DNA of 23,564 nucleotides from a virus. The notes beneath the pieces were generated by a model that saw only the letters and a program-made list of their open reading frames with translations, was not told where the DNA came from and made no database searches. The number at the start of each line of letters is the position of its first letter. Position 1 is the first letter of the stretch. Location: positions 1 to 23,564 of IMG/VR virus record IMGVR_UViG_3300042352_000846; one strand, given 5' to 3'. A program made the position numbers and the translations under genes. This document shows, one piece after another, positions 1,844 to 22,394 of this stretch.

Positions 1844-4800
1844 TTAATTTGGTATTACTCTAAATGAAAATGTTTGTGAAACATCTCTAATAATATCATT
1901 CGGATTATTAGTTACATTAAATTTAATATTTCTATCTACGGGTTCCGCAAGTAATGATATTTTGTTATTGATTTTGTAGTTATATACATCGTTATTATTA
2001 GGGAAATTCAAACTAACCTTACCAATAATGTCTGTCGCAGTAATGGAGAAACTTTTCTTATTAGAACTAACATAAGTTTGGAATTCAGGTATAAAACTAC
2101 CTTCTCCAACTTTTTCTTCAATTATAGTGTTATTTGGACCTACAGTCGTTTTATACGCAATCCAAGACCATAAAGTATTTCCAGATAAGATATTCCAATC
2201 TCCCGAAGCCGGATTTATAGTAATGGTCATTTGTTCATCACCCCCAAATTGATTTGTTGTTTTATTTGCAATTAATACAACAGGTTGAGGTTGGGTATTA
2301 ACATTAGGTGGTAACCCCGGTGGTGTTGATGGTGTTGATGGTGTCAATTGTTCGGGATTATATGTGAACTCACTGAGACTTATACCATCCCCATTTACTC
2401 CTCTAGCTATTATTGGATTTTGTTGTTGAACTGGTGTATTACTAAATGGAACAACAACACTAATATTAAATGAATTATTAATTGTTATATTACTAGTTGT
2501 GGTAACATTATTAATTGTAACCCCCGTTATTTGGTCTAAATCTTTACCGACTATTGTTAGTATGGTTCCACTAACACCTGTTAATGGTGAAAATGATGTT
2601 ATTGTCGGTGGAGAACATCCAACGGGAACATTAAATGTATTTAAATTATTTGGTGGGTTGGTGTTTCCACTATTAGTGTTTTTAATATTTTTTTGTTGAG
2701 TTTTATCATTTTTTTGAATTTCTTTAACATTTTCTATAGGTAGTCCGAATAAACCAGCAGAACTATAAGCGGAATTAAACGTTTTTTCTAACTCAGAATA
2801 TTGACTAATATTTTGGTCAAAATAATCTGATGAGATTGTATTCTGAATTGGCCAACTACAAACATAGTATTTTGTAAGACCAATCCCCGTAGTCGTATTA
2901 GTTATTTGTGGTAGATTTGGAACTAATCTTGATATCATAAACTTCAAGAAATTTGTTATATTATCAAAATGAGCAATAGGTTGTGAAGTTTTTTCCGGAG
3001 TTAAATTAGAGATATTAAGACACGAATATTTATTTTTTGAAAAATTACTAACACTTTCTCCATAATTGTCTGTCGTTAATGTGATGTTTGCAAAATTGTT
3101 ATTAAACCCTTTAAATTGTCCGGATTCAAATGTTTTAACATAACATATCATATAAATAACAACTTGTAAATAAGGGTCAATTGTTTGTTTTTTAATTTCA
3201 TCAACTAAACTTTGAGGACTTAGGAATGTTGGTGTTGGCGTTTGAGCCTCACCCCATAGTTGGAAGTTTGGTGATAGATTATTACGGCATGAGTTAGTTG
3301 TCGCAACAGTATTATTACCACTTTGAGTAACAAATTTTGATTTATCTATGTCTGTAATACCAATTCCTGTTTTACTATCTTTAGTATTTTTAATTATACT
3401 TTCAACTTTAGTTAGTAAATTTTGGTTAACACTTTGAAGGTATTTGTCTATTGATGGTAAATTATACATCCCTTGTCTCGTACCTTTAAATGTTGTTTCA
3501 AAATTACCAGGTGTTATCACATGGTTCACTTCCGTTATGAAATGTGGTCCATAAAACATGGGTATATTTCTCAAATTGAAATACATTGTGGGTTGTAATA
3601 ACGCATTTCCCATACATTGTACCGTACACTCATAACTTCTATTCTTATAATAATTATATAATCCATTATTCTGTGTTGTAACATTTCTACCTGAAGCTTG
3701 ATTGACCATATTCAAATCAGCTTGTATCGTTTCACTAGTCGCTTTTCCTGTATCCATTGAAACTTGTATTGAATGAAATACATTTTGATTTCTAATCCCA
3801 GCATCAACATTAAATCCAACACATTTATTTGAAATCGCCCAATCTTTCTTATTTGTAATATCTTCAATCAGAGGGTTATCTGAATATCGTCTTAAATCAA
3901 AACTATCATTTCTAAACCTTGAATTACCTTTAGGTAAGTCCAAAATTTCAGAAGGTTTATCGGTGAAGAAACAAACCATTTTAGGACTTGAGTCCCTATA
4001 ATCAACATCAAGGTACGTCCCCCACATTCTATCACCAAATTCTAAACTTCCGTTGGTGACAGGTGTTGTAATCCCTGAAACATCCTGTACATTATAAAAA
4101 TTAACATACGATGGTAATGGCATGACATTAAACTTATTCATAATAAGAAGACCACTTAAAAAAGTGAATACACTCATTCTCATGTTTAAGGCATTCTCAT
4201 TTAAAATATTCCTTAAATCAAAAATATTTAAAATAATTGTGTCTCCGATATTTCTTGATGCTCTATCCAAGAACAAGAAATCTTCAAATAGTGTTTTACT
4301 TGAGTAATCCGAACCCGCAATCCATTTATCATTCAAAGATTTAAATAATTCCCAGTATTCAACCTTACTCTGGTCACCATCAATAACACTTTTAATTGTT
4401 CTTTCAGGTAACTCTTGTTGTGGGGGTAAATCTTTTCTTACCCTGGATAAAACCGAATTTAAAATATTACTCTGAAAATTAGAATTTTTTGTTAAGTATT
4501 CTTGAATTTTAGTTTTAAATTGATTGGTTGTTATTGTTGGTAATAATAATTTTTGGGTGGCATACATTTTTATTATTGGCGATAATAACCTAACATTGTT
4601 TGGTGTGAATTCAATATTATTATCAATGAAGAAGTCCGTAATATACGACCCAGTATCAGTATATTTTAAGTTTGTTATTGTTGAAAACCCTACTTCTGTC
4701 TCTAATTCTAACCAAGCATCCGGATAATTCGATTTTGATGTGGATACTGTGATATTATTTAATTTTGAAGGTAAACTATTTTTAACATAAGGATTAAATG

Positions 4801-7800
4801 TTATTGGGTTTACGATTGGGTTATTTCCACCTCCTTGGGCGAGGTAAGAATCCATAACTCTTCGATTGTATTGAGTAGGATTACCATTCCTCAAAATAAC
4901 GTCATACTCTAAAAACGCTTTAACCGTACTTGAAAATGACGATAATTGTGTTTCTCCAATAGTACTAAAATATTCTTCCGTTGTTATTGAGGGTCTTTTC
5001 GATTCAATTTCCATTAAGTTTCTAAACAAATACTGGAAATTTCTAAACAGAGTATTTGGTTCACTTAATGATTGTCCAACCGGAACAATTACATTAGGTC
5101 CTAACTCAATATTCGCAATTGGTTTAGACCAATTTAAAAATTCTTGTTCAAATTTGTCCAAAATGGTTTTGTCGAAGACTGAAAAAATCTCTTCAATTTT
5201 AGAATACTCATCAGTGGTTAATAACTTAAATGGTGATTGTTGTGTTGTTCCTGTCTCAAATTTATTTAAATAAGAATCCGGTTGTGGTTTAACTATTTCG
5301 TCATTATTGAAATACCCATAATTTGATGATGACCATAATAGTCTAATAGAACCATTATAAATGGAATTATTATTATTAAAATTACAAATAGGTTGATTAT
5401 TATTAACACATTCGGTTCTAACTTGATTAAATTGGGTACCAAATGAAGGAACCACATAGTATTTAAATGAACTTGTATTATCACTTGGGTTACACTCCGC
5501 TCCTTGTGTTATTTCATCACCTAACCCATTAGGTATGATAACAGACCAAGTTTGAATATTTTGGTAGTTGTAGGTTGTCGCACTCTGTGTTTGTACATTT
5601 GAATTGGTAAAATTAAATACTTGTAATCCGTAATTTACACTTTCTTGTATTTCACTACTAGTATACCCAGTATACAAATCGTAACCATTATAAAAGACAT
5701 TGAAATCATTTATAACTTTAGGGTAAAATCCTGTCTGTATTGTTGTGATATTGTTTGCAACATTTTGTAATGTGATATTTTTCTCACCTTCAAATTTGAA
5801 ACTATATGTCTTGGTATCCGAACTTGCGATTGGGTCAAAATTTTCTTTATAATTAAAATTTTTCCAAGCGGAATCAAGTATGTCAACATTGTTGGTTTTA
5901 TACTTTTTATATCTGTACCAAACTGAACCCATTTTTAATACCCAAGCATACGGCATTTTATGAATTGCACCAAATTTTTTGAAGCAAGATGCAATATAAT
6001 CTAAGTCGGTTGACGTATCTAATGTTTTATATTTTTCTTTTAACGACGCAATTGGCAATGAATTAATAAAAAGATAGGCCGCCTGAACATATGGATATGG
6101 GTCTTGTCTTCTCCAATTATAAACTCCGTTTTGTATTGCATTTACAAAGTAAGGTGTGTTTAACATTGAGGTTGTTGACTCAGCTATTTTAACCCTACTC
6201 GGTGAAAAATAATTAACATAACTTTCTGTTGGTATAAAAGTTGTTGGGTTTTTTCTTGTTTCATAGAATGCCGATAATCCAACAAGATTGATTTCATTCG
6301 TTGGATTTGAAACTTTAATATATGAAAAATTAGTAACGGGTCTATTAACATTATAATTATAAATGTCGTTAAAATTTGAAATAACGTCTCTATCCTCAAA
6401 AACCGTTAATACTCGACTTGTGTTATATACCGAATTTTTTGTTGAGTTGATACTGTTCGCCATATTACGACTAACCCAAGTTGGGTCTGTAAACGGGTAT
6501 GTATCCACAATTATTGGTTCGTTTGTTACATTTTTAACTAATTGTAATAGTCCGTCCATATTTACCGGAATTTGAGGTTCTTTACCTAATTCATTCAAAC
6601 TCAAAATACTAAATGAATTTTCGGTTATGGCCTTGATATATGGTGTTACAAAAAAATCTCTGATGAAATCTTGGTATGCTCTTCCCGTACCCTGATTTGA
6701 AATGTTATTCAAAAAATTTGGGTAGTTTTGAGATGTTAAGTCATAATTCTTTAATTTTAATGTTAGGAAAGGTGAACTAACCCCTAACGATGTTTTAATA
6801 TTACTAGATTCAGACTCAATAATTGATTTTGATAGTTGGTCAATTTGATTATCACTACCTCTAGTGTAGAGAGAATAGTTTGAAGTTAAGAATTGTCTCT
6901 CCCATATTTCATAAAAAAACTTTATCTCATTTTTATTAACATACGCTATACCGTTGGATGGGTATTCAATAGCATTAAAGTTAACAATATTAGTTGTATT
7001 TTGACTATCGATTGGTGGTTGGGTTACAGGTAGAACAAACTTCTGTGTAATCCCTTTCATGTATTCTTCCACGAATTCCACTTCAGGCCATACTTCATAC
7101 GACCATCCACCCGTTAAATCAACATATTTTGGGTCTCCAGGATATTTTAATTGGAACCTTCCCTTTTTATCATCATTGGTCTCGACGAAAAATTGAGGCC
7201 ATGGATATACCGGTTGTTGTCCATTAACTAATCCCTGATTTGAATTTTTGGCGGATTGGGATATATTAAAATTTTCCACGTTATCGGAACCGGGTGCTGA
7301 GGATGGATTATCATATACAACACTAACTCTTTTAGGATTATTTTTAACATTCCAAGCGTTAGTATGTACCTCATCTAATAACCGAATAAACCCTTCGGCA
7401 GATGCCATAATAACCGCAACTATGTTTCTAACAGTAGGTTTAAATCCTATACCATTTGAAGATGTTTCAATTTTTTCCGATAAATCCGTAGTAATTTTAG
7501 TTTCATATTCTAATAAATTCTTATTACTTTCTGTTTCCATTTTAGATAATAACTGTTGGAATATATCAAAAACATATACAGGTCGAGCAACTTGATTTAC
7601 ATCATTATTTTGTGTTCTACCATTGACGGTTGTTTCAAAAACAGGGTAAAGTTGTTTTTTAATTAATTTTAGAATTAGTTCTTCATTATCCTTAGTTGGT
7701 AATAAAACACCAGTTTGTGATTTTACAGTCTCAGTTAAATTAATTTCATTTATTGAAAGTTGTAACTTGAAGGTATTCTCGGTTATACTATTCTTAATCT

Positions 7801-9124
7801 TATCACCTAAAGTCGTATTAGACTTTAATAATTCATTATATTCTTTAACATATCCCGTCAATAAGGTATTCGCCTCTTCTCGTTTTGTTGGGTCTTCAAG
7901 GTATTCTTGTTTAAAGATATAAACATTTCCAGCATTACCATTTAACTTTATTGGTTTAGGGTTCATATATGTTTTAAACCACGAATTTGGTCCAGCATAA
8001 ATTGTATTAAAGTAATTAGTTAATACTGTTTTATAGTTTCTAATGTTAGTTAGGGGTTCAATTAAAACAGGTGGGTAATTTATTTGAATTGTTTGTTCAA
8101 ATGTTTGTAATTTATCCATTAACTGTGCTACCGTCCATTCGGGGAAATCAGGACTAATCAACCCTTTTGATTTGTACTCACTATAAACTTCAAGAATTTT
8201 TTGATACCCCTTTTCTGTTACAAGTTCAGTTATTACATTATTGGTTGATATTGTAGAATCTTTTGATATTACATCACTTTTTGATTGTGATTCGATGGTT
8301 TTATTTGACCCTCCTTCCGGTGAAGTTATTGATGTTGCGATGTCAAAAGTTTTACTATACATATGAGGTGTTGCAAATAAACTCCCCATCGATATTTCAT
8401 TCAATATGTTAAATTTATATCCCACAAAGTCTAACTCAATTGTGTAATTTCCACTGGTAGTGTTAAATCGAGCGTTAAAAGTTCTTAAATTCAATTGATA
8501 TCTAACCGCTTGTCCATAATAACCTTTAAGTGTTAAATAAAAAGGACAATAAGGTAAATTAAAAAACGCGGCATATGGTGAATCATCACCGAGTTGAAAT
8601 AGGGCTCTTCCTTGTACATCTTCTAACGTCATAGTTACCGTTGGTACAAATGAAGTATTGGTTTTAATACTTATATTTGTAATACCCAATAATCCGTTAT
8701 CTGTTGATTTATTACCCGGATTAACAACGGATGTTTTAAGGTAAGGTGTATCACCATTTTTTGGGTTTACAATTTCATTTTGGATTTGATTTACACCTAA
8801 ACCGTTGGTAGAATTTTTACCGGTTATTTCATCCAGATATCCTGTTGTTAAAAAAGTTTTTTCAGTTGGTTTTAAAAAATTCATTTTAGCAACCGAAATA
8901 GTTTTAACCCTATCATTTGGTGCACCTCCAACAGATAATTTTGTTCTCGGTACAACTTCAGCTTCAAGATTAGCATACATAACCAAATTTTCATGGTCAA
9001 CTAATCTTTCTTTAATATTACCAAATGTATCTATTGTCTTATTTGGGTCAACAACTACGATGTTTTGATAGTCAAATTCAACTAAAATATTACCACTTTT
9101 ATCCCCTTGTAAAATACCTGCCAT
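1844..9124 (-). CDS. giant baseplate hub / tail fibre-like structural protein (2426 aa)
   Basis: This is the largest gene in the window. The N-terminal part has KTNTSFVPTVTMTLEDVQGR and LPYCPFYLTLKGYYG (about residues 150-205), resembling hub/ring domains of myovirus baseplates. At about residues 1825-1885 lies YECTVQCMGNALLQPTMYF, then RNIPMFYGPHFITEVNH and FETTFKGTRQGMYNLP, a beta-rich hub-type signature as in gp27/gpD-like proteins. After it come an IPT/TIG-type Ig fold (about 2165-2257: PPTITSFSPLTGVSGTILTI...), a Pro/Thr linker (2257-2285) and a last beta domain (2285-2426). The middle is Asn/Thr/Tyr-rich beta sequence without recognised motifs. T4 gp27 is 391 aa, so this is either a fused hub or a large accessory baseplate/fibre protein; the terminal Ig-like domains suggest surface exposure and glycan or cell-surface contact. 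It follows the LysM gene by 32 nt. The start at 9124 has no Shine-Dalgarno sequence. Function is partly inferred. Confidence 0.75.
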   Translation of the reverse strand: MAGILQGDKSGNILVEFDYQNIVVVDPNKTIDTFGNIKERLVDHENLVMYANLEAEVVPRTKLSVGGAPNDRVKTISVAKMNFLKPTEKTFLTTGYLDEITGKNSTNGLGVNQIQNEIVNPKNGDTPYLKTSVVNPGNKSTDNGLLGITNISIKTNTSFVPTVTMTLEDVQGRALFQLGDDSPYAAFFNLPYCPFYLTLKGYYGQAVRYQLNLRTFNARFNTTSGNYTIELDFVGYKFNILNEISMGSLFATPHMYSKTFDIATSITSPEGGSNKTIESQSKSDVISKDSTISTNNVITELVTEKGYQKILEVYSEYKSKGLISPDFPEWTVAQLMDKLQTFEQTIQINYPPVLIEPLTNIRNYKTVLTNYFNTIYAGPNSWFKTYMNPKPIKLNGNAGNVYIFKQEYLEDPTKREEANTLLTGYVKEYNELLKSNTTLGDKIKNSITENTFKLQLSINEINLTETVKSQTGVLLPTKDNEELILKLIKKQLYPVFETTVNGRTQNNDVNQVARPVYVFDIFQQLLSKMETESNKNLLEYETKITTDLSEKIETSSNGIGFKPTVRNIVAVIMASAEGFIRLLDEVHTNAWNVKNNPKRVSVVYDNPSSAPGSDNVENFNISQSAKNSNQGLVNGQQPVYPWPQFFVETNDDKKGRFQLKYPGDPKYVDLTGGWSYEVWPEVEFVEEYMKGITQKFVLPVTQPPIDSQNTTNIVNFNAIEYPSNGIAYVNKNEIKFFYEIWERQFLTSNYSLYTRGSDNQIDQLSKSIIESESSNIKTSLGVSSPFLTLKLKNYDLTSQNYPNFLNNISNQGTGRAYQDFIRDFFVTPYIKAITENSFSILSLNELGKEPQIPVNMDGLLQLVKNVTNEPIIVDTYPFTDPTWVSRNMANSINSTKNSVYNTSRVLTVFEDRDVISNFNDIYNYNVNRPVTNFSYIKVSNPTNEINLVGLSAFYETRKNPTTFIPTESYVNYFSPSRVKIAESTTSMLNTPYFVNAIQNGVYNWRRQDPYPYVQAAYLFINSLPIASLKEKYKTLDTSTDLDYIASCFKKFGAIHKMPYAWVLKMGSVWYRYKKYKTNNVDILDSAWKNFNYKENFDPIASSDTKTYSFKFEGEKNITLQNVANNITTIQTGFYPKVINDFNVFYNGYDLYTGYTSSEIQESVNYGLQVFNFTNSNVQTQSATTYNYQNIQTWSVIIPNGLGDEITQGAECNPSDNTSSFKYYVVPSFGTQFNQVRTECVNNNQPICNFNNNNSIYNGSIRLLWSSSNYGYFNNDEIVKPQPDSYLNKFETGTTQQSPFKLLTTDEYSKIEEIFSVFDKTILDKFEQEFLNWSKPIANIELGPNVIVPVGQSLSEPNTLFRNFQYLFRNLMEIESKRPSITTEEYFSTIGETQLSSFSSTVKAFLEYDVILRNGNPTQYNRRVMDSYLAQGGGNNPIVNPITFNPYVKNSLPSKLNNITVSTSKSNYPDAWLELETEVGFSTITNLKYTDTGSYITDFFIDNNIEFTPNNVRLLSPIIKMYATQKLLLPTITTNQFKTKIQEYLTKNSNFQSNILNSVLSRVRKDLPPQQELPERTIKSVIDGDQSKVEYWELFKSLNDKWIAGSDYSSKTLFEDFLFLDRASRNIGDTIILNIFDLRNILNENALNMRMSVFTFLSGLLIMNKFNVMPLPSYVNFYNVQDVSGITTPVTNGSLEFGDRMWGTYLDVDYRDSSPKMVCFFTDKPSEILDLPKGNSRFRNDSFDLRRYSDNPLIEDITNKKDWAISNKCVGFNVDAGIRNQNVFHSIQVSMDTGKATSETIQADLNMVNQASGRNVTTQNNGLYNYYKNRSYECTVQCMGNALLQPTMYFNLRNIPMFYGPHFITEVNHVITPGNFETTFKGTRQGMYNLPSIDKYLQSVNQNLLTKVESIIKNTKDSKTGIGITDIDKSKFVTQSGNNTVATTNSCRNNLSPNFQLWGEAQTPTPTFLSPQSLVDEIKKQTIDPYLQVVIYMICYVKTFESGQFKGFNNNFANITLTTDNYGESVSNFSKNKYSCLNISNLTPEKTSQPIAHFDNITNFLKFMISRLVPNLPQITNTTTGIGLTKYYVCSWPIQNTISSDYFDQNISQYSELEKTFNSAYSSAGLFGLPIENVKEIQKNDKTQQKNIKNTNSGNTNPPNNLNTFNVPVGCSPPTITSFSPLTGVSGTILTIVGKDLDQITGVTINNVTTTSNITINNSFNISVVVPFSNTPVQQQNPIIARGVNGDGISLSEFTYNPEQLTPSTPSTPPGLPPNVNTQPQPVVLIANKTTNQFGGDEQMTITINPASGDWNILSGNTLWSWIAYKTTVGPNNTIIEEKVGEGSFIPEFQTYVSSNKKSFSITATDIIGKVSLNFPNNNDVYNYKINNKISLLAEPVDRNIKFNVTNNPNDIIRDVSQTFSFRVIPN
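2322..2346 (-). repeat. 9-bp tandem repeat coding the STP linker
   Basis: GGTGTTGAT on the plus strand occurs twice in tandem and partly a third time. It encodes the STPSTP part of the Pro/Thr linker between the TIG domain and the last domain of the 2426-aa protein. A short repeat of this kind can vary in copy number by slippage. Confidence 0.6.
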
Positions 9125-9156
9125 AATTATTTAATAATATAATCCCTTTTCTAAAA

Positions 9157-9480
9157 TCATCTACCATAATAATAAAAATATTCATCAATGGCTCCTTTAT
9201 AATCTTGTAATGAGGGTAGTAATGGAAAAGGTACGATTAACACCGCTCCATCATATATGTTATTCTCTAAACCACCAAACTCAGGATTTGCCTGTAAAAT
9301 CAACCAACCAAAAAAAGGTGAGTTATAAAATTCTTGGGACACAACATCTAATCTACTTCTACCGACTTTATAGATATATGTTTTGTCTGTTGTCTTTGGG
9401 GCAATTCTCACAAAAGGGACAACGGTTTGTTCCCCATTAATTAAAAAATTACTATATCTATTCCAATATTGGTATGCCAT
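9157..9480 (-). CDS. LysM-type baseplate protein, gp53 / gpX-like (107 aa)
   Basis: Residues about 35-90 have the layout of a LysM-type domain: YIYKVGRSRLDVVSQEFYNS, then FGWLILQANPEF and a final VLIVPFPLLPS. This matches the pattern of phage tail protein X and of the LysM domain in T4 gp53, a wedge protein that joins the inner baseplate to the hub. The length is close to a single LysM domain plus a short N-terminal arm with aromatic residues. No signal peptide. The ATG overlaps the stop of the preceding 1677-aa gene by one base (TAATG), so translation is probably coupled. In tail particles the domain usually binds protein rather than peptidoglycan. The fold assignment is fairly sure; equivalence to gp53 is inferred from order and size. 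Confidence 0.75.
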   Translation of the reverse strand: MAYQYWNRYSNFLINGEQTVVPFVRIAPKTTDKTYIYKVGRSRLDVVSQEFYNSPFFGWLILQANPEFGGLENNIYDGAVLIVPFPLLPSLQDYKGAIDEYFYYYGR

Positions 9481-12400
9481 TAGTTAAGTTTTGCTTTTGA
9501 TATAAATACATCCACAGGGTTTTCATCATTCCATGTTTTATTATTTGTGTTTTGGTTTTCAGTCCAACCTAAACCTTTAATTAATTTTTCTCGGTTTGCA
9601 CGACTCGCACTACCAATTTCTTCTGTTTCATACTCTAATATTCTTTTCTTCTTTAAGTTAAATGAAGGTGTATATTTTAAGAAAGTTTTTAATTTTTCTT
9701 TTTCCATATAGTCAATAAATTCATTGGTAATATTATTTTCATTAACAAATATTTGTTTTGTGTTTTTTATCCAATAATCATCGAATACATCACTAATCCC
9801 TTTCATACCATCTTTTGAATTTTTACTAATTAAACTACTATTAGAAAGTATATTACCAATTAACGCATTTTTAAATGATTCGTATTTTTTAGAATCAACA
9901 ACATCATTGGATATTATCATATAAACTCTTCGAAATGTTAAATCAGAAAAATCATCTTCATTAAATGGTTCAAATACTTTATCGGTGTCTAATTTGGTTA
10001 AAGGACTGAAAACTAATGTACCTATATATTTTTTAGAATTTTTTGCGACGAAATCGGTGGGTTTCCAAATAATCCCATTAAACTCTGTAACACCACTATT
10101 AAGTATTTTTACATCTTGTTGTAATTCTTTAAAAGTATCACTAACATCTTTAGAACTTGGGTCAATCTCTGTTGTTCCTTTTGTGATGTAAGTAATAACT
10201 TTACCGTCAGAGGTTTGATATCCGTCCGTACCAAGATTTAAATTTGAACTATCCGTATAGGTTATAGTATTAAGTCTACCCCAATATCCCATATAGTTCT
10301 GTTGTACGTTAACCATACCATTTGTTATGTTTGTGGCAGCGTTTAAAAATGAACCTTTTTTATTTGTTACAAAATTTACATAATTCTCTTTAACTTGTCT
10401 TATTAAAGGTTTTGTAAAGTTATATTCCGGGTTTGAAATAAATTTGATAAATCCTTCATCATCACTTTTAATATCATCAATTAATTGATTAAATATTTCA
10501 TCAACTCTCTTTTCTAAATTATTAGGTTTACCAAACAAAATTAAATTTTGGTGTTGTTTATCCACAAAAGATTTACCATTTTGATATATTCTTTCTGACA
10601 TCCATTGTTGTCTAACAGCATTGTTATATTGAGAAGTAACTTCTTTATTTTTATTAACAACATTGATAAAATAATTTTGACTTTCTTCAACCGATTTATC
10701 CATAAAGGCACTGTAACTGGTTGTTCCTGTTTGTCTAGACTCAATAACAACATTTGTGATAATATCACCAATTGTTTTATCATTACTTTGACCGTTGTTT
10801 GGTGTTGACTGATTAATTGTTGGTGGAGTCACACTATTAATTACCGACTTTAAAAAATCTTGGTCAATAACTTTATAACTCAAGTCTGTTGAGTCCGCTC
10901 TATCGTCATATATTTCAGTATTAGCGTAATAATTAAATGTTAAAGCGTTTTGTAATTTATCAACAGATTCTTTTAATCCACTACCCCCAACAAAATCGAA
11001 TGTTAAATTAATATTCGCAATCATAGGTTGTACCCCAATACCTTCAGGATTTATATCTAAATCTTCATAAGTTAACGATAAGTTTTTTGGTATTATTTTA
11101 GTATTGTAAAAATCTCCAATTCTTAATATTAAGACAGGTGGGGCACCAAATGATGTATTTGTCGCATCATTATAAGTTACCACCCTTGAACCATTATCAT
11201 TCCTAATTGTGGGTATTGTGTCACCAGGTCTCATACATTGTTGTAAGAACGTTAATCTAGAATTAAGACCTTCCGGAGTCATTGAATGGAATCCCGGTTG
11301 GAAAAATTTTAATTTATCTTTTAAATTATCATAAACTAACGGACTTTCTTCTTTAATTGTTTCAAAATAGTCACATTCACTTAATAACGACCTCAAAACT
11401 TTTTTACTAATATTATCTCTTATGGTTACATTTGTTTCAATAACAGGTATTGTTTCGGTCTTTGTTACAACATTTCCAGTTACAACTGTTGTCTTTTTTT
11501 CAGGTAATACCGCAGGAGGTGCTTTTAAAGTAGATTTAATACTTGAGATGTATGCTCGTCTACAAGCCATTGCACTTGTGGTAAAAATCTCATTATTTAT
11601 TGTTTGACTATCTCCGCCATCTTTATCGGTACAAGTAATATTACCCTTAACAAAAAATGTTTTTGTTTGTTCATCGTAAGATTCAGGTTGAGCGTTCTCT
11701 CCTCTTGCAGTTCCCGGTATAACACTTAATGTTTTAGGTGAACCACCGTTAACATATTTGGTCATTTTACTATTACCTGTGATATAACTAATTGCAGAAT
11801 CAATCCTTCTTGCAGATAATTCATCATTAAAAGACAAACTGGCTTTAGCCGATGTCGTTGCGTCAATAACAATTGTCACATTACCTTCACTACTATTTGT
11901 GAATTGTTTATCCAATTCATCAATCAACTTATCAATCACATTTTTATTTGGGGTAATTACCGTGTCAAAAAATGAGGTAGTTAAATTTCCCTTTGATTGT
12001 TCCTCGTATTCGGTTTTTTGTTGTATGTAACTATCGTATAACACTCCGAAATTTTCATTTCCTTTTGGTTTTGGAATGGCGTTATTAAAATAAAATGACT
12101 TATTTAAAAATTGTTTAAAAGTATCCTCGGGTGCGCCTCCAGTACTATTACTACTCGAAACTTGAGGTATTGTTGAGATTTGATTTACCGCATATTGTAT
12201 TTGTTCTCGTGTCGATTCTTTTGAACCAATTGCTTGTTGTATTTGGAATAAATCATTTGGAGGTATTGTATAATATTTTTTTGCAAGTTCATATAAATCA
12301 TATTTTCTACATCCAGCGAAGAATGATTCTAATATAGAGTCAATTCTTGTTTTATTTGTTTCATTTGCAATAACTTTATTAACAATTACATTTAAAACCG

Positions 12401-14513
12401 ATGGATGGTCAACAACTATTTTCCACTCTAAAGTACCACCTCTACTTGTATTTTTATACGTATATATGGGTTCAGGTCTACCAATAAAATCGGTTTGGTT
12501 CCAATTCGCGGTCGTACTTTCATTAAACTTTAAACCATAGGGTGGAAACCACATGACTCTACCCCCGTTTGGTCCTCTCTCACATACTGGTAAATCGGAA
12601 ACCGTATAACCAGGCGTATTTGATGTTGCCCACGCTAAGTTTTCTAAAGAGAACATATATTTTTTAGCCTTAGCATTATCATATGACCCAATTAAATTAG
12701 TAGAATCTTGACCCCCCTCTTGTTTGTTTGGTACGATATTAAGATTATATGTCTTATCTAAAACAGAGTACGAAAATCTTCTCCCTTCAGTAACAATACC
12801 GTCAGTTTTTTGAAGGTCATTATATTGTAGATATGGTGTGTCTTTAGTAAATATTCTACAATATTCAGTTCCAACCTCTTGGCCTATTGAACCAACATAA
12901 CTCAATACTCTTGAACCCTTGGTAATTTCTTTGTATCCATCATTAAAAACTTTAGACACTTGGTCAATTGCATTACCAACATGCTGTAATCTTCTCCCCC
13001 CTTGTGGTTGGCTATTTATGATTCTTTGGGTTTCATCCAGAATGGAACCTTGTTTTAATACCCGTTCGGTAGATTCTGTTGAATTATAAGATGAAGGTTT
13101 AAAGTCTTCATCTTGATTTACTATAACACCTCCTACACCAACTTTCTTACCAGCATTTCCTCTATATTTTGTGGAAGTCCAAGTAAACCCTCCTTCAATA
13201 CCACCACCATTACTATATGTTGGTCCGTTAGCACCTAACCTAATTTCTTTACTTGGTCCTTCGTATAATTGTGCTAATTCTTGAGGACCATAAACCGGTG
13301 ATTGTTGTTCATTACCAAACGAATCGACAGGTAACTCTCTACTTGGTGAAAATACTCTTGACGGGTCTGAGGTTGTTGAACCAACATAAAAATTGGCATT
13401 ATTTGTTTGGGTTCCAACAATCACACCTCCCAGTCTATCTAATAATGTTCTATCGTAGTTTGGTTTATATCGATTAAAATTAATATTTTTCCATAAGATA
13501 GACTTTTGTCCTCCTCCGGTATTATTGTAAAAAATTTGAGACCCTGTTTTTCCCGCCCCCAATAAATTTGATACAAAATTACCCACGGCCGCAATTGGGT
13601 TAGCAAGTAAGGATTGGGCAATTGTTGACGGTCTTGGAGGATTAATGTTTGGGTCAAAGTAAGAACCAGGTATTAATGAAAAAGGAAGTTCGCTTCCCGC
13701 CAATCTAAGTGAAAAGTCCGCGGCTGCGGTTATAGGATTAGACGGGACAGTAATTTGGTAATTGGGTTCAATTAATGGGACTCTACCCGTTAAAATGTTA
13801 ACAACATTCGTACTACTATTAATATTTAAAATATTTGCACGACCTATAGTTTCTCGAATAATTGCTCGTCCAATTCTTTCCTCAAACTCTCTTTTTAATG
13901 TTTTAGCCCCTAATCGAGCAATAAAGGAATCTTGACTCAAAAGTCCATTACTACCTTGTGGGTCTGGAGATAATAGTATTGATAATGGTGAATAAGATGA
14001 CGAATTAAAAGTTGTTGGGTATGGTTGATTGTTATATAAATTTAACGCTCCACCTGTAAGTCCGTTATTTATCGAATCCGGAGACACAATCGCTTCTCCA
14101 GCGTCTAATTGTTGAAGACTATTACTACCATAGGCATTTAATGGTTGCCATGCAGGTGCAATACCCGGAAATCCAATCTTTGCCGCAATTTGGGCTTCTT
14201 CTAAAAGTTTTGCGTCTTGTTGTCCAGGTCCATATTCCCCTTTATTAGGTGCAATAGTATTAACCGCTAAATCGGGTAATTGTTCATATCCCCCATCATT
14301 ACCCCATTTATTAAGTGGGTATAATTTATCAGCAAAAAATGGTGTATCTATAAAAGAGTCCGGACTATCAACAGGTACTAAATCAGATTGAACAATCTCA
14401 TATGTTGTTGGTTGTACAACTTTAGTTGGAGATTTGGAATATGGTACCAAATTTCTCGTAATAAGTTTTTTTCTAAACCCTTCGGTGCTAATATAATCTA
14501 ATGGACTACCCAT
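9480..14513 (-). CDS. giant baseplate protein with tube-like and OmpA-like segments (1677 aa)
   Basis: A large structural protein placed between tape measure and LysM protein, where T4-like phages carry baseplate proteins that start the tube. Visible parts: a Pro-rich N-terminus (MGSPLDYISTEGFRKKLITR...); at about residues 640-710 MWFPPYGLKFNEST, FIGRPEPIYTYKNTSRGG and LEWKIVVDHPSVLNV; at about 875-1000 an OmpA-like segment (TIVIDATTSAKASLSFNDEL then SARRIDSAISYI); at about 1122-1197 VLILRIGDFYNTKIIPKNLS, NPEGIGVQPMIANINLTFDF and YYANTEIYDDRAD, which look like tube-fold strands; then a Lys/Asn-rich C-terminal region. I read it as a fused baseplate protein, possibly doing the job of T4 gp48/gp54 plus a cell-wall contact, but the match to any single T4 gene is not certain. 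It has a late-type element 7 nt before the ATG. Confidence 0.75.
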   Translation of the reverse strand: MGSPLDYISTEGFRKKLITRNLVPYSKSPTKVVQPTTYEIVQSDLVPVDSPDSFIDTPFFADKLYPLNKWGNDGGYEQLPDLAVNTIAPNKGEYGPGQQDAKLLEEAQIAAKIGFPGIAPAWQPLNAYGSNSLQQLDAGEAIVSPDSINNGLTGGALNLYNNQPYPTTFNSSSYSPLSILLSPDPQGSNGLLSQDSFIARLGAKTLKREFEERIGRAIIRETIGRANILNINSSTNVVNILTGRVPLIEPNYQITVPSNPITAAADFSLRLAGSELPFSLIPGSYFDPNINPPRPSTIAQSLLANPIAAVGNFVSNLLGAGKTGSQIFYNNTGGGQKSILWKNINFNRYKPNYDRTLLDRLGGVIVGTQTNNANFYVGSTTSDPSRVFSPSRELPVDSFGNEQQSPVYGPQELAQLYEGPSKEIRLGANGPTYSNGGGIEGGFTWTSTKYRGNAGKKVGVGGVIVNQDEDFKPSSYNSTESTERVLKQGSILDETQRIINSQPQGGRRLQHVGNAIDQVSKVFNDGYKEITKGSRVLSYVGSIGQEVGTEYCRIFTKDTPYLQYNDLQKTDGIVTEGRRFSYSVLDKTYNLNIVPNKQEGGQDSTNLIGSYDNAKAKKYMFSLENLAWATSNTPGYTVSDLPVCERGPNGGRVMWFPPYGLKFNESTTANWNQTDFIGRPEPIYTYKNTSRGGTLEWKIVVDHPSVLNVIVNKVIANETNKTRIDSILESFFAGCRKYDLYELAKKYYTIPPNDLFQIQQAIGSKESTREQIQYAVNQISTIPQVSSSNSTGGAPEDTFKQFLNKSFYFNNAIPKPKGNENFGVLYDSYIQQKTEYEEQSKGNLTTSFFDTVITPNKNVIDKLIDELDKQFTNSSEGNVTIVIDATTSAKASLSFNDELSARRIDSAISYITGNSKMTKYVNGGSPKTLSVIPGTARGENAQPESYDEQTKTFFVKGNITCTDKDGGDSQTINNEIFTTSAMACRRAYISSIKSTLKAPPAVLPEKKTTVVTGNVVTKTETIPVIETNVTIRDNISKKVLRSLLSECDYFETIKEESPLVYDNLKDKLKFFQPGFHSMTPEGLNSRLTFLQQCMRPGDTIPTIRNDNGSRVVTYNDATNTSFGAPPVLILRIGDFYNTKIIPKNLSLTYEDLDINPEGIGVQPMIANINLTFDFVGGSGLKESVDKLQNALTFNYYANTEIYDDRADSTDLSYKVIDQDFLKSVINSVTPPTINQSTPNNGQSNDKTIGDIITNVVIESRQTGTTSYSAFMDKSVEESQNYFINVVNKNKEVTSQYNNAVRQQWMSERIYQNGKSFVDKQHQNLILFGKPNNLEKRVDEIFNQLIDDIKSDDEGFIKFISNPEYNFTKPLIRQVKENYVNFVTNKKGSFLNAATNITNGMVNVQQNYMGYWGRLNTITYTDSSNLNLGTDGYQTSDGKVITYITKGTTEIDPSSKDVSDTFKELQQDVKILNSGVTEFNGIIWKPTDFVAKNSKKYIGTLVFSPLTKLDTDKVFEPFNEDDFSDLTFRRVYMIISNDVVDSKKYESFKNALIGNILSNSSLISKNSKDGMKGISDVFDDYWIKNTKQIFVNENNITNEFIDYMEKEKLKTFLKYTPSFNLKKKRILEYETEEIGSASRANREKLIKGLGWTENQNTNNKTWNDENPVDVFISKAKLN

Positions 14514-14566: not shown

Positions 14567-16411
14567 TTATTTTGTTCTTTCAAGTTTTTTATTTTGTTTA
14601 TCAATAATTTCGGTTATCGCTCTTGCGAATTCCGGACCTTCAAAATATTCTTTCCATTGTTTTTGTTGTTCAAGTGTGTAATTTGAGGGTGGAGATGGAA
14701 CATTAATTGGACCTAATTGACCTATTAGTGGACTTCCGGTATTAGTTGGTGTCGAAGTTTCAGTGTAATTTTTTAATTTAGTCCCGTAACCCATAATAGT
14801 ACTTTTAGAAACAGCACTTGTTTGAGTTACATTTGTTTGTTTAGGAACATTCTTAAGTGAAGCGTTATATTCACTACCCGTTATTTCTTTTCTAAATAAC
14901 TTTTCAATTTCACTTGACCCTTTAACTTTCTTAACACTTTCATTGAGTATCTCTTTAACAACTTCCATTGCGTTACCAGGTAACTTCTCAGCTTTTTTTT
15001 CTAAATCATTTTTTATTGAAAGGAATTTTGTACCTAAAGTAAATAAATCAAAATTATTACTATCAAAATCTTTGACTAAGTTTACAAGTTTATCTACCCC
15101 TTCACCGACTAATTTAGTAATTTGTTCATCTTTACCTTGTAATTTATCCGCAGATGTACTACTAATACTACCAATAACACTTCTAACCCCTTCGAGATTG
15201 GTTCTAACCTTCTCTTGTTTAGGTAGTGCGTATTTCAATAATTGTAACATTGATGCCGCATCTGAAGCGAGATTATTAATTAAGGATAATTGACTTTTTT
15301 GAATTTCTTCTAAAGATTTTGGTGAGTTTTTTTGTTGTTCTATTAGTTTATCAAATTCCTCTTGGTTAAGATTTTGTAATTCTTTTTTAGTTCCATCTTC
15401 CAATTTAACCTCATACTTACCTCCTTTACCCATCGCAGCAATATTTGCCAAGTATTGTTTGTCCTCTTCATTTTCAAATTTTAACCCCGCAGTACTTACT
15501 TGTGATAATCTCCTGTCTAAATCAGCCGCCGCCAATCCCATTTTACTCATTTCCTTCGCACTAACACCTGTTTGGTCTTCTATTTGTCTTAAAGTTAAGA
15601 CACCTTGTGGATTTATTTTGAATGATTGTGTTTGCTCGTCAAAATATGTAAAAGATTTTGCAACGTCCTCTAAACTTTTTTGTAATCCTGATGGGTCATT
15701 AATGGACTGATTCATTAATTGAAATGGGTCAATTAAATTCCCTGCAGACACACCCAACCTTTGGAATGCTGACGCAACGTCAATAGCACCTGCCGGGTCT
15801 AAAACTTTTTCGGCTAAAGTAAACGTTTGATTCATATCAAATCTTAACATTGAGGCATGTGCTGCCATTTTAGCTAAACCTAAAACACCTCCTTGAAATT
15901 GGTATCGATTCATTTGTTCCATATTCGAAGATACGTCTGACATAACTTCTCGAGCATTTAAACCAACACTTTGAATATATGTTATTGAGCCTTCAAGGTT
16001 AGTACCTATTTGTGATGTCTCATATCCAACGTCTTTGAAATTATTAACTAATTGTTTGGCGGTTGTATCTAATATTTTAGACGCGGCATAAAGTTCACCA
16101 ACCACTTCTTTATTTTCAATGACATTTCTTTTTGACGCACTACCAATCTCAACCATAGTTTGGAGTGTGTTATCCAAATTACCCCCTAACTTTAAAACTT
16201 GGACTGAGGACTCGGCGTATGCAAGATTCATCTCCTGAATTCGACTCCTACTTAATGTAAAATTTTTATTTAAGGCGTTTGAACCCGCAGTCATTTCACC
16301 AAATGCGGAAACCAATGTACCAACAGGACTAAGTAACGATTTAAAAACATCCGTTAATTTACTTAAGTCATTCTTAATACCACTAGGGTCTATATTTTCC
16401 GCTGTACTCAT
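14567..16411 (-). CDS. tail tape measure protein (gp29-like)
   Basis: 614 aa, close to T4 gp29 (590 aa). It sits directly after tube and tail assembly chaperone, the conserved place for the tape measure. The sequence is largely helical: an N-terminal SKLTDVFKSLLSPVGTLVSA stretch, repeated Ala/Leu/Met/Gln-rich helices (about residues 60-330, for example LAKMAAHASMLRFDMNQ and SAKEMSKMGLAAADLDRRLS), a Lys/Glu-rich middle and a Pro/Ser/Thr-rich C-terminal part (about 535-585) before a basic helix. The protein fills the tube, fixes its length and is expelled with DNA on infection. Taking the usual rule of about 0.15 nm per residue, a tail near 90 nm is expected (inference). A late-type element lies 5 nt before the ATG, and a long palindrome just upstream separates it from the chaperone. 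No lysozyme or peptidase motif was seen. Confidence 0.8.
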   Translation of the reverse strand: MSTAENIDPSGIKNDLSKLTDVFKSLLSPVGTLVSAFGEMTAGSNALNKNFTLSRSRIQEMNLAYAESSVQVLKLGGNLDNTLQTMVEIGSASKRNVIENKEVVGELYAASKILDTTAKQLVNNFKDVGYETSQIGTNLEGSITYIQSVGLNAREVMSDVSSNMEQMNRYQFQGGVLGLAKMAAHASMLRFDMNQTFTLAEKVLDPAGAIDVASAFQRLGVSAGNLIDPFQLMNQSINDPSGLQKSLEDVAKSFTYFDEQTQSFKINPQGVLTLRQIEDQTGVSAKEMSKMGLAAADLDRRLSQVSTAGLKFENEEDKQYLANIAAMGKGGKYEVKLEDGTKKELQNLNQEEFDKLIEQQKNSPKSLEEIQKSQLSLINNLASDAASMLQLLKYALPKQEKVRTNLEGVRSVIGSISSTSADKLQGKDEQITKLVGEGVDKLVNLVKDFDSNNFDLFTLGTKFLSIKNDLEKKAEKLPGNAMEVVKEILNESVKKVKGSSEIEKLFRKEITGSEYNASLKNVPKQTNVTQTSAVSKSTIMGYGTKLKNYTETSTPTNTGSPLIGQLGPINVPSPPSNYTLEQQKQWKEYFEGPEFARAITEIIDKQNKKLERTK

Positions 16412-16416
16412 ATTAC

Positions 16417-16433
16417 ATTTTTATATATAAATA
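16417..16433 (-). promoter_or_regulatory. T4-late-like promoter element before the tape measure gene
   Basis: Minus strand TATTTATATATAAAAAT, the same 17 nt as at 1809-1825. Five bases separate it from the ATG at 16411, so a start at the usual distance falls on or just before the ATG. The perfect 17-nt identity between two distant sites supports a functional element. Confidence 0.55.
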
Positions 16434-16434
16434 G

Positions 16435-16463
16435 AAGAAGGACTAAAATTTTTAGTCCTTCTT
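16435..16463 (-). terminator. long palindrome overlapping the end of the +1-frame extension
   Basis: AAGAAGGACTAAAA (16435-16448) is repeated inverted at 16450-16463 around one T; as RNA about 11 pairs with a 7-nt loop would form. It includes the TAA stop of the +1-frame ORF and lies directly before the tape measure promoter element. The bases after it on the minus strand are C-TATTTATA rather than a clean T run, so it may be a weak terminator or an mRNA end-stabilising or processing hairpin. Confidence 0.5.
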
Positions 16464-16604
16464 ATTATCTTCAACCCATTTATCAAGTAAGTATCGTCTT
16501 AAAAACACAGGCATTTGTAGAAAATCCTGATAAGTGATTTTCATTAAGGTATTCAAATAGTAAAATTCATCTATTTGATTTTTTCTATAATCAGAAGAAA
16601 GGAC
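16452..16604 (-). CDS. +1-frame C-terminal extension of the tail assembly chaperone (50 codons)
   Basis: An open frame overlaps the end of the chaperone gene in the +1 frame. It opens after a TAG at 16616-16614 and runs to TAA at 16454-16452. From the likely slip point it reads VLSSDYRKNQIDEFYYLNTL and then MKITYQDFLQMPVFLRRYLL before DKWVEDNKKD. The pattern of a short helix, L-x-M-P and R-R-Y-L-L resembles the small C-terminal 'T' parts of tail assembly chaperones. The first ATG (16544) would give only 30 aa and leave out the coherent RKNQIDEFYYLNTL part, for which no ATG exists. I therefore favour translation by +1 frameshifting from the upstream gene, giving a 293-aa fusion. An independent 30-aa gene or a one-base sequence error in the T7 run are the alternatives. 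Confidence 0.6.
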   Translation of the reverse strand, partial: VLSSDYRKNQIDEFYYLNTLMKITYQDFLQMPVFLRRYLLDKWVEDNKKD

Positions 16605-17334
16605 GAAAAAAATCTACCCCAAACCCAACATTCACTGTTAGATTTTCTCCGGACGGGGCCATAATTGTTTTAGTCATATCTAGTCTTGGTTCATTCTCAT
16701 TCATAAATTTTCTAACATATTTTGAGTCAGCAATTGGCATTGATTCAACAAATTTGGCGATAACCGATTTATCAGTAGAACCATCAACTTCAACTATTTC
16801 TTTTTGTAATCTCCAAGTAATTTTTGGTACTACTCTACCTTGGGGGTATGAGTCCGATAATTTACTAATCTCCGTAATTTCACCATAATTTAATGGTTTT
16901 ATTTTCAAAGTAGATTGAGATTTTGGTAATACTATTGTAAATGTTCCATCCTCAGTAGGTTGTTTACCTTCAATAATCGGTAATTCATTTAATTGTACTG
17001 TAGTTTTAAATGGTTTTTTGGTTGTTGGGTCAATTAAATTTAACTCCATTTCCGGACCAAACGCGGTATTTCTTAAGAAGATTAAAATAGATTCGACATC
17101 ACCTTCAATTAAATCTTCAACTCTAATATCTGGTTCATATATCTTTGAACGCAATAAGTTAATTGTCAAATCATCGGCACCTCCCATTAGAATATTTTCA
17201 TCGGAGGCTGTTAAATAACCAACTTTTAACGACTTTTTTTTATTTTTATAAAAAATCCCTTTTGAAGGTAGTTGAACCACGTCATGTGGTAATGTAAAAT
17301 TTTCTTGACCGTAGTCTCTTGATTGTGTTTCCAT
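16591..17334 (-). CDS. tail assembly chaperone, T4_baseplate family (gp26/gp51-like)
   Basis: 247 aa. The N-terminal half has the signature of the T4_baseplate family: VVQLPSKGIFYKNKKKSLKVG (about 19-39), LTASDENILMGGADDLTINL, LLRSKIYEPDIRVEDLIEGD and ILIFLRNTAFGPEMEL. The family includes T4 baseplate hub assembly proteins and resembles tail assembly chaperones. The gene lies between tube and tape measure, the place of lambda G/GT, which supports a chaperone that holds the tape measure while the tube polymerises. The zero-frame product ends FFRPFF just after a T7 run, and a second open frame continues in +1 (see the extension). The start at 17334 is only 4 nt after the T run of the terminator behind the tube gene, so expression probably depends on read-through and is kept well below that of the tube. 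Confidence 0.75.
   Translation of the reverse strand: METQSRDYGQENFTLPHDVVQLPSKGIFYKNKKKSLKVGYLTASDENILMGGADDLTINLLRSKIYEPDIRVEDLIEGDVESILIFLRNTAFGPEMELNLIDPTTKKPFKTTVQLNELPIIEGKQPTEDGTFTIVLPKSQSTLKIKPLNYGEITEISKLSDSYPQGRVVPKITWRLQKEIVEVDGSTDKSVIAKFVESMPIADSKYVRKFMNENEPRLDMTKTIMAPSGENLTVNVGFGVDFFRPFF
16603..16614 (-). other. candidate +1 ribosomal frameshift site
   Basis: Zero frame reads GAT TTT TTT CGT, with seven T at 16612-16606. tRNA-Phe on the second TTT can move one base forward to TTC and keep full pairing; decoding then continues GTC CTT TCT and joins the 50-codon extension. The zero-frame stop TGA follows four codons later. A -2 shift would reach the same frame. Loss of one T from the run would fuse the two frames outright, so a homopolymer sequencing error must be excluded. 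Confidence 0.5.
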
Positions 17335-17418: not shown

Positions 17419-17907
17419 TCAATAAACTAACACACATCTATCCATTCGTAAAGTAGCGGTAATTTCAGCTAAAGCGTCATCACTATATCCTAAAGAACCA
17501 AAATTAACATCAGTTAAAAATGTTCCATAAAGAATCCATTTCTCAACAACAACACCTGTCGGGTCTAACATTTCAAGGTCAATATCTTTTTTATAACCTG
17601 CAGCATAACCCATACGACCGGTAACCGATTCAGCATGTAAACGAACCCATTCCATAAGTGCTTGAGCCGCAGAAGGTCCGATTGGGTCACGGAATTTAAC
17701 TTGGATTGGGTCCCAATTAAATCTACCCGCAACGAATGTGGATGTATTTAAAAATTCAATTTCTTTTGAGTTAATTTTAATTGACGGTCTAGCCGCAGTC
17801 TCAATAAACCATTCGTTAATTCCTAAACTTGATGGGAACCTTAGTATAAATCGATTCTTTCTCTTTGGTTCATAAGGAATCGGCATTTTCATTAATAAAT
17901 CAGCCAT
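17419..17907 (-). CDS. 19: tail tube protein (gp19-like)
   Basis: 162 aa, close to T4 gp19 (163 aa). The sequence has the typical order: a short N-terminus, then NRFILRFPSSLGINEWFIET, ARPSIKINSKEIEFLNTSTF, FNWDPIQVKFRDPIGPSAAQ and ALMEWVRLHAESVTGRMGYA, and a C-terminal strand region (VVEKWILYGTFLTDVNFGSL). These are the tube-fold strands, the loop and the single helix of the T4 tube family. The subunits form stacked hexameric rings inside the sheath. The gene is preceded by the HAD gene and a late-type element and followed by a perfect terminator, as expected for a high-copy protein with its own transcript. The start is the only ATG at the 5' end, 25 nt after the element; no Shine-Dalgarno sequence is seen. 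Confidence 0.9.
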   Translation of the reverse strand: MADLLMKMPIPYEPKRKNRFILRFPSSLGINEWFIETAARPSIKINSKEIEFLNTSTFVAGRFNWDPIQVKFRDPIGPSAAQALMEWVRLHAESVTGRMGYAAGYKKDIDLEMLDPTGVVVEKWILYGTFLTDVNFGSLGYSDDALAEITATLRMDRCVLVY

Positions 17908-18000: not shown

Positions 18001-18828
18001 CTAGTTATATAACTTCTTAATACCTCCAGCCGTAGAATAAGTCTTAACTATATTATCTGGTTTATCTTTAAAATGTTTACTCATTACTTCTACGTTTTTA
18101 ATATCATCATCTGAAAATCCTATTACTGGTTCATTTGGTATGAAGTTATTTGATACCTCATTTTTTATAAATGCTCTTTTATTAAGTTTACTAGCCATTT
18201 TTTTAATATAAGAAACAAATTTTTCCATGGCTTTAACTTTTAACTCTTCCGGATTCGCGGCACTACCTTCTCCAAAAGTTACTGGATGATATTTATTAAG
18301 GTTTAAATATGATTTTATTAATTCATCATCACTCATATCTTCTTCACCAACAAATGTTCTATATTTTTTCAAATTCTTAATTAAAGAATCTTTGTCAATA
18401 CCATTAAACCCTTTAATAATATAGTTATAAATTGCTTGTTTTAGTGTGCTAGGATTATGTCCTCTTGCGGTAATAATTGAAAAGATAGAACCATTATTAA
18501 TTGCTTCTCTAAAATCATCGAATGCCGGTCCTTCTTTTGCCCTCATAGCATCAATTATAAAATCTTTATCACCTTCCGTTTTAAAATTTCTAAATGGATT
18601 ATCTGCAAAACCAACAATAGTTTCACCTTTATATTGAACTGGGTTTTTTCCCAAGTCATGTCTATATTCCGCAAAATCATCGGTACTCATACCTATCTCA
18701 TCACCATCTTCAGTTTTTAACATTATCTTAGTTGGCATATGAACAATATTATCATCCCAATCGAATGCGTAATATTTCATATCTGGTGTTCCTTCGGGTT
18801 TAAATCCTTCTTTAAGTTGTCTTTTCAT
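18001..18828 (-). CDS. HAD-superfamily phosphatase-like protein (275 aa)
   Basis: All four HAD motifs are visible: motif I YYAFDWDDNIV with nucleophile D23 and acid D25; motif II SIITARG with T120; motif III Lys in EELKVKAMEKF (about K198); motif IV GFSDDD with D240-D242. About 90 residues between motifs I and II probably form a cap, so small phosphorylated molecules or nucleic acid ends are possible substrates; the sequence does not tell which. There is no signal peptide. The gene lies between sheath and tube, normally adjacent in T4 (genes 18 and 19), so an enzyme has been inserted in a structural block. It starts 15 nt after a stable hairpin behind the sheath gene and ends 93 nt before the tube ATG. 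It could be a cytoplasmic enzyme of the infected cell or a virion-packaged enzyme. The family is sure, the role unknown. Confidence 0.85.
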   Translation of the reverse strand: MKRQLKEGFKPEGTPDMKYYAFDWDDNIVHMPTKIMLKTEDGDEIGMSTDDFAEYRHDLGKNPVQYKGETIVGFADNPFRNFKTEGDKDFIIDAMRAKEGPAFDDFREAINNGSIFSIITARGHNPSTLKQAIYNYIIKGFNGIDKDSLIKNLKKYRTFVGEEDMSDDELIKSYLNLNKYHPVTFGEGSAANPEELKVKAMEKFVSYIKKMASKLNKRAFIKNEVSNNFIPNEPVIGFSDDDIKNVEVMSKHFKDKPDNIVKTYSTAGGIKKLYN

Positions 18829-22190: not shown

Positions 22191-22203
22191 TATTTATAAA
22201 TGG
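22191..22203 (+). promoter_or_regulatory. possible promoter of the plus-strand gene
   Basis: TATTTATAAATGG on the plus strand is the same type of element, including a TATAAATG close to the T4 late consensus. It lies 29 nt before the ATG at 22233. Because the motif is nearly palindromic, its direction is not certain. Confidence 0.35.
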
Positions 22204-22226
22204 TAGGAATTAATTCTACCTTTTTT
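22202..22226 (+). promoter_or_regulatory. dyad before the plus-strand gene: operator or leader terminator
   Basis: GGTAG and CTACC flank AATTAATT with one extra G, and six T follow (22221-22226). As DNA it is a near-perfect inverted repeat beside the start site of a small DNA-binding-like protein, which fits an autoregulatory operator. As RNA it would form a stem of about 7 pairs plus a T6 run, which fits a short terminator or attenuator. The sequence alone does not decide. Confidence 0.45.
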
Positions 22227-22232
22227 CTCACT

Positions 22233-22394
22233 ATGAAAATTAAGAAAGAAATTAAGAATATTAAAATATCCCCTGAATCACATAATATACTGAAAAAGTA
22301 TTGTGATAAAAGAGGAATTAAAATTTATAAATTTTTGGAAAATCTTATTATGGAAAATTGTAAAGAGAAGAGAGATATCTATGGTGAAGATTAA
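22233..22394 (+). CDS. small ribbon-helix-helix-like protein (53 aa)
   Basis: This is the only supported gene on the plus strand. The sequence (MKIKKEIKNIKISPESHNIL, then KKYCDKRGIKIYKFLENLI) has the layout of small ribbon-helix-helix regulators: a basic strand, KISPESHNILKKYC as the first helix, a RG-I turn and a second helix KIYKFLENLI. Such proteins bind operator DNA as dimers. An in-frame ATG at 22200 exists, but its extra residues would be coded by the dyad and promoter-like region, so 22233 is preferred. The stop overlaps the stop of the opposing 347-aa gene by 4 bases (TTAA). It is antisense to read-through from that gene towards the sheath. It may regulate itself or phage late genes. 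The fold is likely, the target unknown. Confidence 0.7.
   Translation: MKIKKEIKNIKISPESHNILKKYCDKRGIKIYKFLENLIMENCKEKRDIYGED

Follow-up and report, generated by a model that had tools for sequence, protein, structure and literature searches.

Introduction

The tail assembly chaperones gpG and gpGT of phage lambda are encoded between the tail tube and tape measure genes. The short and the long form share their N-terminal part, and the C-terminal domain of the long form lies in a shifted frame, which is entered by a -1 shift near the end of the gene. Vladimirov, Gautam and Davidson reportedly identified the tail assembly chaperone (TAC) genes of T4-like phages in 2022, and the title of their paper is said to argue for a mechanism other than frameshifting.

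A review of recoding published in 2016 described G-T frameshifting as widely conserved 'except T4' and considered a +1 shift very likely in HSTV-2 (PMC5009743). The tail chaperone gene of HSTV-2 and genes of Listeria phage PSA resemble the locus described here in being phage structural or assembly genes that use +1 shifting; they belong to other phages, and PSA differs further in that other genes and CCC slip codons are also involved (PMC5009743). Hub assembly chaperone is the function listed for the T4 proteins gp26 and gp51 (PMC3004832). A 2025 paper that cites Vladimirov et al. gives polyT -1 signals as known in the TAC-N genes of T4-like phages (PMC12846349). We found no description of +1 shifting in the gp26 family in the literature that we searched, in which Vladimirov et al. 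2022 was represented by its title and by papers citing it. The +1 form in this family may be new, though part of it may already be known.

In this study we analyzed a stretch of DNA of 23,564 nucleotides from a T4-like phage (IMG/VR record IMGVR_UViG_3300042352_000846), further called the window. Comparison of its gp26-family gene with homologues indicates that programmed +1 ribosomal frameshifting very probably gives rise to short and long isoforms of a tail assembly chaperone.

Results and Discussion

The gp26-family gene and its two reading frames

The gene lies on the minus strand (17334..16591) and encodes a T4_baseplate protein (gp26 family; PF12322/phrog_150) of 247 aa, the putative short, TAC-N-like isoform. 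The match of this protein to PF12322 reached 29.8 bits (gathering score 24.5), and the match to phrog_150 (1.6e-11) covered profile positions 12-233 of 282. The chaperone gene is located between the tail tube gene, which lies upstream (17419..17907, minus strand, phrog_4542), and a downstream gene of 614 aa (14567..16411, minus strand), which occupies the place of the tape measure. The latter gave no significant Pfam or PHROG match; it was assigned by its position and length, and the gene at the same position in relatives is annotated as tape measure.

At the end of the gene the minus strand reads GGG GTA GAT TTT TTT CGT CCT TTC TTC TGA TTA TAG. The 0-frame stop is TGA (16591..16593, minus strand), which is replaced by TAA or TAG in relatives. 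A TAG (16616..16614, minus strand) closes the +1 frame just upstream, and from there this frame is open for 53 codons (16613..16452, minus strand) and ends with TAA (16452..16454, minus strand). Within it, 16455..16604 (minus strand) encodes a C-terminal domain of 50 aa (VLSSDYRKNQIDEFYYLNTLMKITYQDFLQMPVFLRRYLLDKWVEDNKKD), which together with the 0-frame part would form a TAC-NC-like long isoform of 293 aa. No ATG occurs in the +1 frame until 30 codons before its end, and a TTG lies a few codons ahead of that ATG. An earlier note on this DNA had pointed to a T7 run at the end of the 247-aa ORF, to an overlapping open +1 frame and to the lack of ATG in that frame until its final 30 codons; all of these are present in the window. 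It had also proposed that a slip of tRNA-Phe from TTT to TTC would give a 293-aa fusion; in our computation, a shift at TTTTTTC likewise yields 293 aa.

The arrangement is like that of lambda gpG/gpGT in its position between the tube and tape measure genes, in the N-terminal part shared by the short and long forms and in the C-terminal domain that is frame-shifted near the end. It is unlike lambda in the direction of the shift, which is -1 in lambda and would be +1 here, and in the N-terminal protein, which here belongs to the T4 gp26 family. Three features of frameshifted TAC genes (TAC-N/TAC-NC), namely the position, a selected overlapping frame without its own start and a conserved slippery site, were found at this locus.

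The putative slip site

We compared the site in 36 non-redundant members of the window's clade. They read GGG, GTN/GCN, Asp/Glu, TTT TTT CGY CCT TTC TTY, and the GGG, the TTT TTT, the CCT and the first TTC are invariant. The putative slippery site TTT TTT C of the window lies at 16605..16611 (minus strand), and TTT TTT is present in 36/36 clade members. It runs into the A-site codon CGT (16603..16605, minus strand; CGY in 36/36), which is a rare Arg codon: the genes of the window contain CGT 13 times and CGC once, versus 167 AGA codons.

Further, we examined the site codon pair in 181 loci from a wider set of homologues. The pair was TTT TTT in 133 loci, TTT CTT in 29 and TTC TTT in 11; rarer pairs were TTT CTA (4), CTT TTT (3) and CTG TTT (1), and the codon that follows was mostly TGG or CGY. 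Every pair includes a 0-frame TTT whose next base is T or C. The general rule that these sequences yield is a 0-frame TTT (or CTT), then T or C. Phe as the second residue of the pair was encoded by TTT in 147/147 loci, versus 57-94% TTT in other well-filled Phe columns. In the Streptomyces phages TTC is preferred by about 2:1, yet TTT is found at the site in 4/4.

The anticodon GAA of tRNA-Phe pairs equally well with TTT and, one base further on, with TTT or TTC. The slip of tRNA-Phe from TTT to TTC, as put forward in the earlier note, fits the window site and stands; sites of this kind are not restricted to this phage, and a long T run is dispensable, because the rule is only that a 0-frame TTT (or CTT) is followed by T or C. 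The codon pair is directly preceded by the nearest +1-frame stop, and about 4 codons past its second codon comes the nearest 0-frame stop. The two stops box the site and a shift would therefore be confined there. The C-terminal domain was not in the -1 frame, as it would be after a classical heptamer; the window and 180 other loci have it in +1. A stop codon acting as a stall signal was rejected as a general rule, since the stop may be TGA, TAA or TAG and its distance after the slip varies.

Conservation of the two frames

We identified 80 viral contigs encoding proteins 78-91% identical to the 247-aa protein. All of these close relatives that were long enough had a 0-frame stop (TGA or TAA) at the same place, and their +1 frame read the same protein (...DYRK.QIDEFYYL...TYQDF..MP.FVRKYLLDKW.E...). 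A further 181 contig loci came from scans in which immuto, Mel-JY01, SP-15 and a huge-phage homologue served as queries, and the homologue set comprised 184 non-redundant loci from viral contigs and isolates. A 0-frame stop, a +1-frame extension and a 0-frame TTT at the overlap were present in 181 of the 184 (these are related loci and the counts are not independent). One of the remaining three was cut off by the contig end past the stop, and two (L266 and L267) were without the +1 extension.

The +1 extension is under purifying selection in the window's clade (pS 0.62, pN 0.10, dN/dS 0.08), with zero stops in 33 sequences. The other two frames over the same extension gave dN/dS of 1.0 and 1.6 and contained stops in all sequences. 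The earlier note had named conservation of the slip site and of the +1 frame in homologues as a check of its proposal, and a +1 frame that is not conserved as a refutation; the slip site turned out to be conserved, and the +1 frame strongly so. It had also held that a plain fused gene with six T or a separate gene started by ATG would speak against a shift. We observed that the domain remains in +1 even where relatives have six T, and that an ATG-started gene occurs in only 2 of the 184 loci, exactly those without the slippery TTT.

The same layout was found in isolated phages, namely Flavobacterium phage immuto, Microcystis phage Mel-JY01, Streptococcus phage GXN1, Listeria phage LIS04, Bacillus phage SP-15, the Streptomyces phages BRock, LuckySocke, GiJojo and pSt2308, and Rhodothermus phage RM378. 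Identity was approximately 23-31% for the annotated isolates immuto, Mel-JY01, GXN1, LIS04, SP-15 and BRock. In none of the retrieved isolate records were the two frames joined in the annotation; the extension appears as a small hypothetical ORF or is absent. Judged by sequence, the layout is kept in hundreds of related phage sequences and is unannotated there.

Alternative explanations

The +1 frame could be a separate small gene with its own start, in or just after the T4_baseplate gene, that is translated by re-initiation or translational coupling. Many clade relatives do have a +1-frame ATG upstream of the slip site (MLGLG...), the domain gene of L266 and L267 is started by ATG, and partial ORFs are annotated in immuto, SP-15, LuckySocke, GiJojo and BRock. 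However, in the window, L024 and L027 a TAG stands between the place of the relatives' upstream ATG and the domain, and in the window initiation at such an ATG is excluded because the TAG at 16616..16614 intervenes. Moreover, the +1 frame lacks ATG, GTG and TTG from its last upstream stop to residue 15 of the extension in 39 of the 181 loci, of which the window is one, and a separate gene leaves both the invariance of TTT and the G-run upstream of the site unexplained. We consider this explanation unlikely. The sequences of L266 and L267 are a natural control: their sites read TTC TTG TAT and TTC CTT TGG, respectively, so that the slippery TTT is lost, and their C-terminal domain is a separate ORF that starts independently at its own ATG after the 0-frame stop.

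It is very unlikely that RNA polymerase, and not the ribosome, changes the frame by slipping on the T run. Runs of T6-T7 are present in most loci, but there are sites without a long run (TTTCTTTGG, TTTCTATGG, TTCTTTTGG and CTGTTTCGC), and polymerase slippage does not explain the upstream G-run either. A -2 slip of the ribosome, which we regard as still a little less probable, would reach the same downstream frame and give a product one residue longer, with the predicted junction ...DFFFVLSS instead of the ...DFFVLSS predicted for +1. The T runs of the window and of the T7 relatives permit re-pairing after -2, whereas at TTC TTT TGG, CTG TTT CGC and TTT CTT TGG re-pairing is good by +1 only; the upstream G-run, too, resembles the stimulator of a +1 site (RF2).

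With a homopolymer at the junction in one metagenomic contig, one might suspect that an indel from sequencing or assembly has disrupted a single in-frame gene at its T run, or that the extension is the tail of a decayed pseudogene. The chance of this is negligible: the frames are related in the same way at 181 non-redundant loci and in the genomes of isolates that infect several bacterial phyla, the T count is usually six and the +1 frame is under purifying selection. Nearly all close relatives read GAC/GAG/GAA-TTTTTT at the site; the T7 run of the window is not a homopolymer error because its extra T comes from the Asp codon, whose third base it forms (GAC>GAT), and the frame relation in the relatives is identical. 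Sequencing error, transcriptional slippage and the -2 slip were thus rejected on the comparative sites.

Possible stimulators of the +1 shift

If the frame is changed by +1 ribosomal frameshifting, the GGGG upstream of the site (16617..16620, minus strand) is a possible stimulator, either Shine-Dalgarno-like or as part of a hairpin. GGGG is invariant in the clade; a GGG codon precedes the site in 36/36 clade members, while GGG accounts for approximately 7% of Gly codons elsewhere. We found GGG within 18 nt upstream of the site in 36/36 loci of the window's clade, 39/60 loci of the immuto group and 25/66 loci of the Mel-JY01 group, and the background rate of GGG in the same genes was 3-7%. The G-run was missing from the 13 loci of group H and from many other loci. 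The rare CGT in the A site may also promote the shift. RNAalifold gave a weak consensus around the site, with few compensatory changes and little covariation, and the sole hairpin at the site is formed by GGGG and CGYCC on either side of the T run.

The possible stimulation by the G-run recalls the RF2 gene (prfB). The site is like that of RF2 in its NTT codon followed by T or C, which allows re-pairing one base downstream, in its probably slow A-site codon and in its upstream G-run. It is unlike RF2 in that no stop codon occupies the A site (CGY in the window's clade and TGG in most relatives), in that the gene is a structural phage gene and in the distance from the G-run to the second slip codon, most often 8 nt (in some loci 3 nt).

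Relation to T4 gp26 and gp51

Both gp26 and gp51 of T4 matched PF12322 (8.8e-64 and 3.9e-52, respectively). The phrog_150 profile was covered over positions 14-235 by gp26 and 13-280 by gp51; therefore gp26 has the length of the short form and gp51 that of the long form. For the 293-aa fusion of the window, the end of the phrog_150 match moved from position 233 to 252 (of 282) with a gain of 6 bits, and for the fusion of Mel-JY01 it reached 274 of 282. In hhalign, a profile of the long form was collinear with gp51 up to the last residues of the latter (P 4.5e-4). The C-terminal domain alone matched the C terminus of gp51 weakly (P 0.03), and an HMM search of T4 proteins with the profile of this domain gave no significant match to gp51.

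We modelled the short form and the C-terminal domain separately with AlphaFold2. The model of the short form (pLDDT 87) matched the folds of gp26-type and hub-assembly-chaperone viral proteins. In VIA-align it had weak matches to the HK97 tail assembly chaperone gp13 (2OB9; Z 5.0, 95 residues) and to YqbN (Z 5.6, 83 residues), a phage tail assembly chaperone (PMC9603447); these were the only PDB entries above Z 3, the next, unrelated one being at 2.9. The C-terminal domain was modelled as three helices (pLDDT 89.5). Its fold search gave nothing significant, with one of 16 weak hits named tail assembly chaperone, and the sequence search against solved structures gave no match.

The T4 pair is like the forms described here in belonging to the same Pfam family and in having short- and long-form lengths. 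It is unlike them in that the two T4 forms are separate genes on opposite strands and the frameshift is absent. The likeness to frameshifted chaperones drawn in the earlier note is supported, with T4 itself as an exception: it has two PF12322 paralogues, a short one (gp26) and a long one (gp51).

Proposed mechanism

We propose that most ribosomes would stop at TGA and release the 247-aa short form. In a minority of cases, while tRNA-Phe sits on TTT in the P site and the rare Arg codon CGT waits in the A site, the tRNA would slip one base forward and re-pair with TTT/TTC. The shifted ribosomes would then read the three-helix C-terminal domain in the +1 frame and produce the 293-aa long form. 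If lambda G/GT is taken as a guide, the tape measure protein may be coated by many short copies, and few long copies may recruit tail tube subunits via the extra domain. The frames, their conservation and the selection on them, the boxed slip site, the upstream G-run and the lack of an alternative start are read from the sequence; from these we infer the occurrence of the shift, its efficiency, the role of the stimulators and the chaperone function.

Variation within the family

Reading of six sequences placed the C-terminal domain in -1, following T TTT TTC or T TTT TTT, in the jumbo phages Atu_ph07, Vibrio 2.275.O, XacN1, Munch and PA5oct, and apparently also in LR756511. They are like the window in having a gp26-family gene, a C-terminal domain in another frame and the same Phe-Phe site, and unlike it in that their domain is reached by -1 at a classical T TTT TTY heptamer, whereas that of the window lies in +1. 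The jumbo gp26-family loci L282, L283, L284, L288, L289 and L088 carry the -1 heptamer and are annotated without a frameshift.

These comparisons suggest that solutions differ within one gene family: +1 shifting, -1 shifting, a pair of genes in T4 and a split gene in L266 and L267. We lean towards the view that a very widespread, unannotated +1 cassette, made of the G-run, an NTT-Y slip codon and the C-terminal domain, is the normal route to the long chaperone in many T4-like phages, and that its Phe-Phe site is also used for -1 shifting in jumbo phages and was abandoned for duplication in T4 or for a split gene in L266 and L267.

If this is true, the rule of short and long tail chaperones would extend to the T4 branch, its stated exception, and a recoding signal would be seen to switch between +1 and -1 at a single site of a single gene family. 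For annotators, the small 'hypothetical' ORFs ahead of the tape measure gene would be the end of the chaperone. The same layout in the isolated phages SP-15, immuto, BRock and RM378 makes a direct test possible.

Other features of the window

An inverted repeat, AGAAGGACTAAAA/TTTTAGTCCTTCT (16436-16462), overlaps the last codons and the stop of the +1 frame. It resembles a terminator or processing hairpin between the chaperone gene and the tape measure position, and is kept in nearly all clade members, with L007 and L009 as exceptions. Just past this hairpin, on the plus strand and antisense to the tail genes, we observed the conserved T4 late promoter-like octamer TATAAATA (16426-16433); octamers of this type occur 8 times in the window, versus 6.2 expected by chance.

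Two very long tail-module proteins of 2426 and 1677 aa flank a baseplate wedge-like protein of 107 aa (phrog_7145) at 1844-14513. A gene of 275 aa (18001-18828), without Pfam or PHROG matches, lies between the sheath and tube genes; it has YYAFDWDDNIVHMP near its start and looks by eye like a HAD phosphatase. An ORF of 64 aa on the opposite, plus strand (22200-22394), between the sheath gene and a 347-aa gene, possibly encodes a small DNA-binding protein, as judged by eye.
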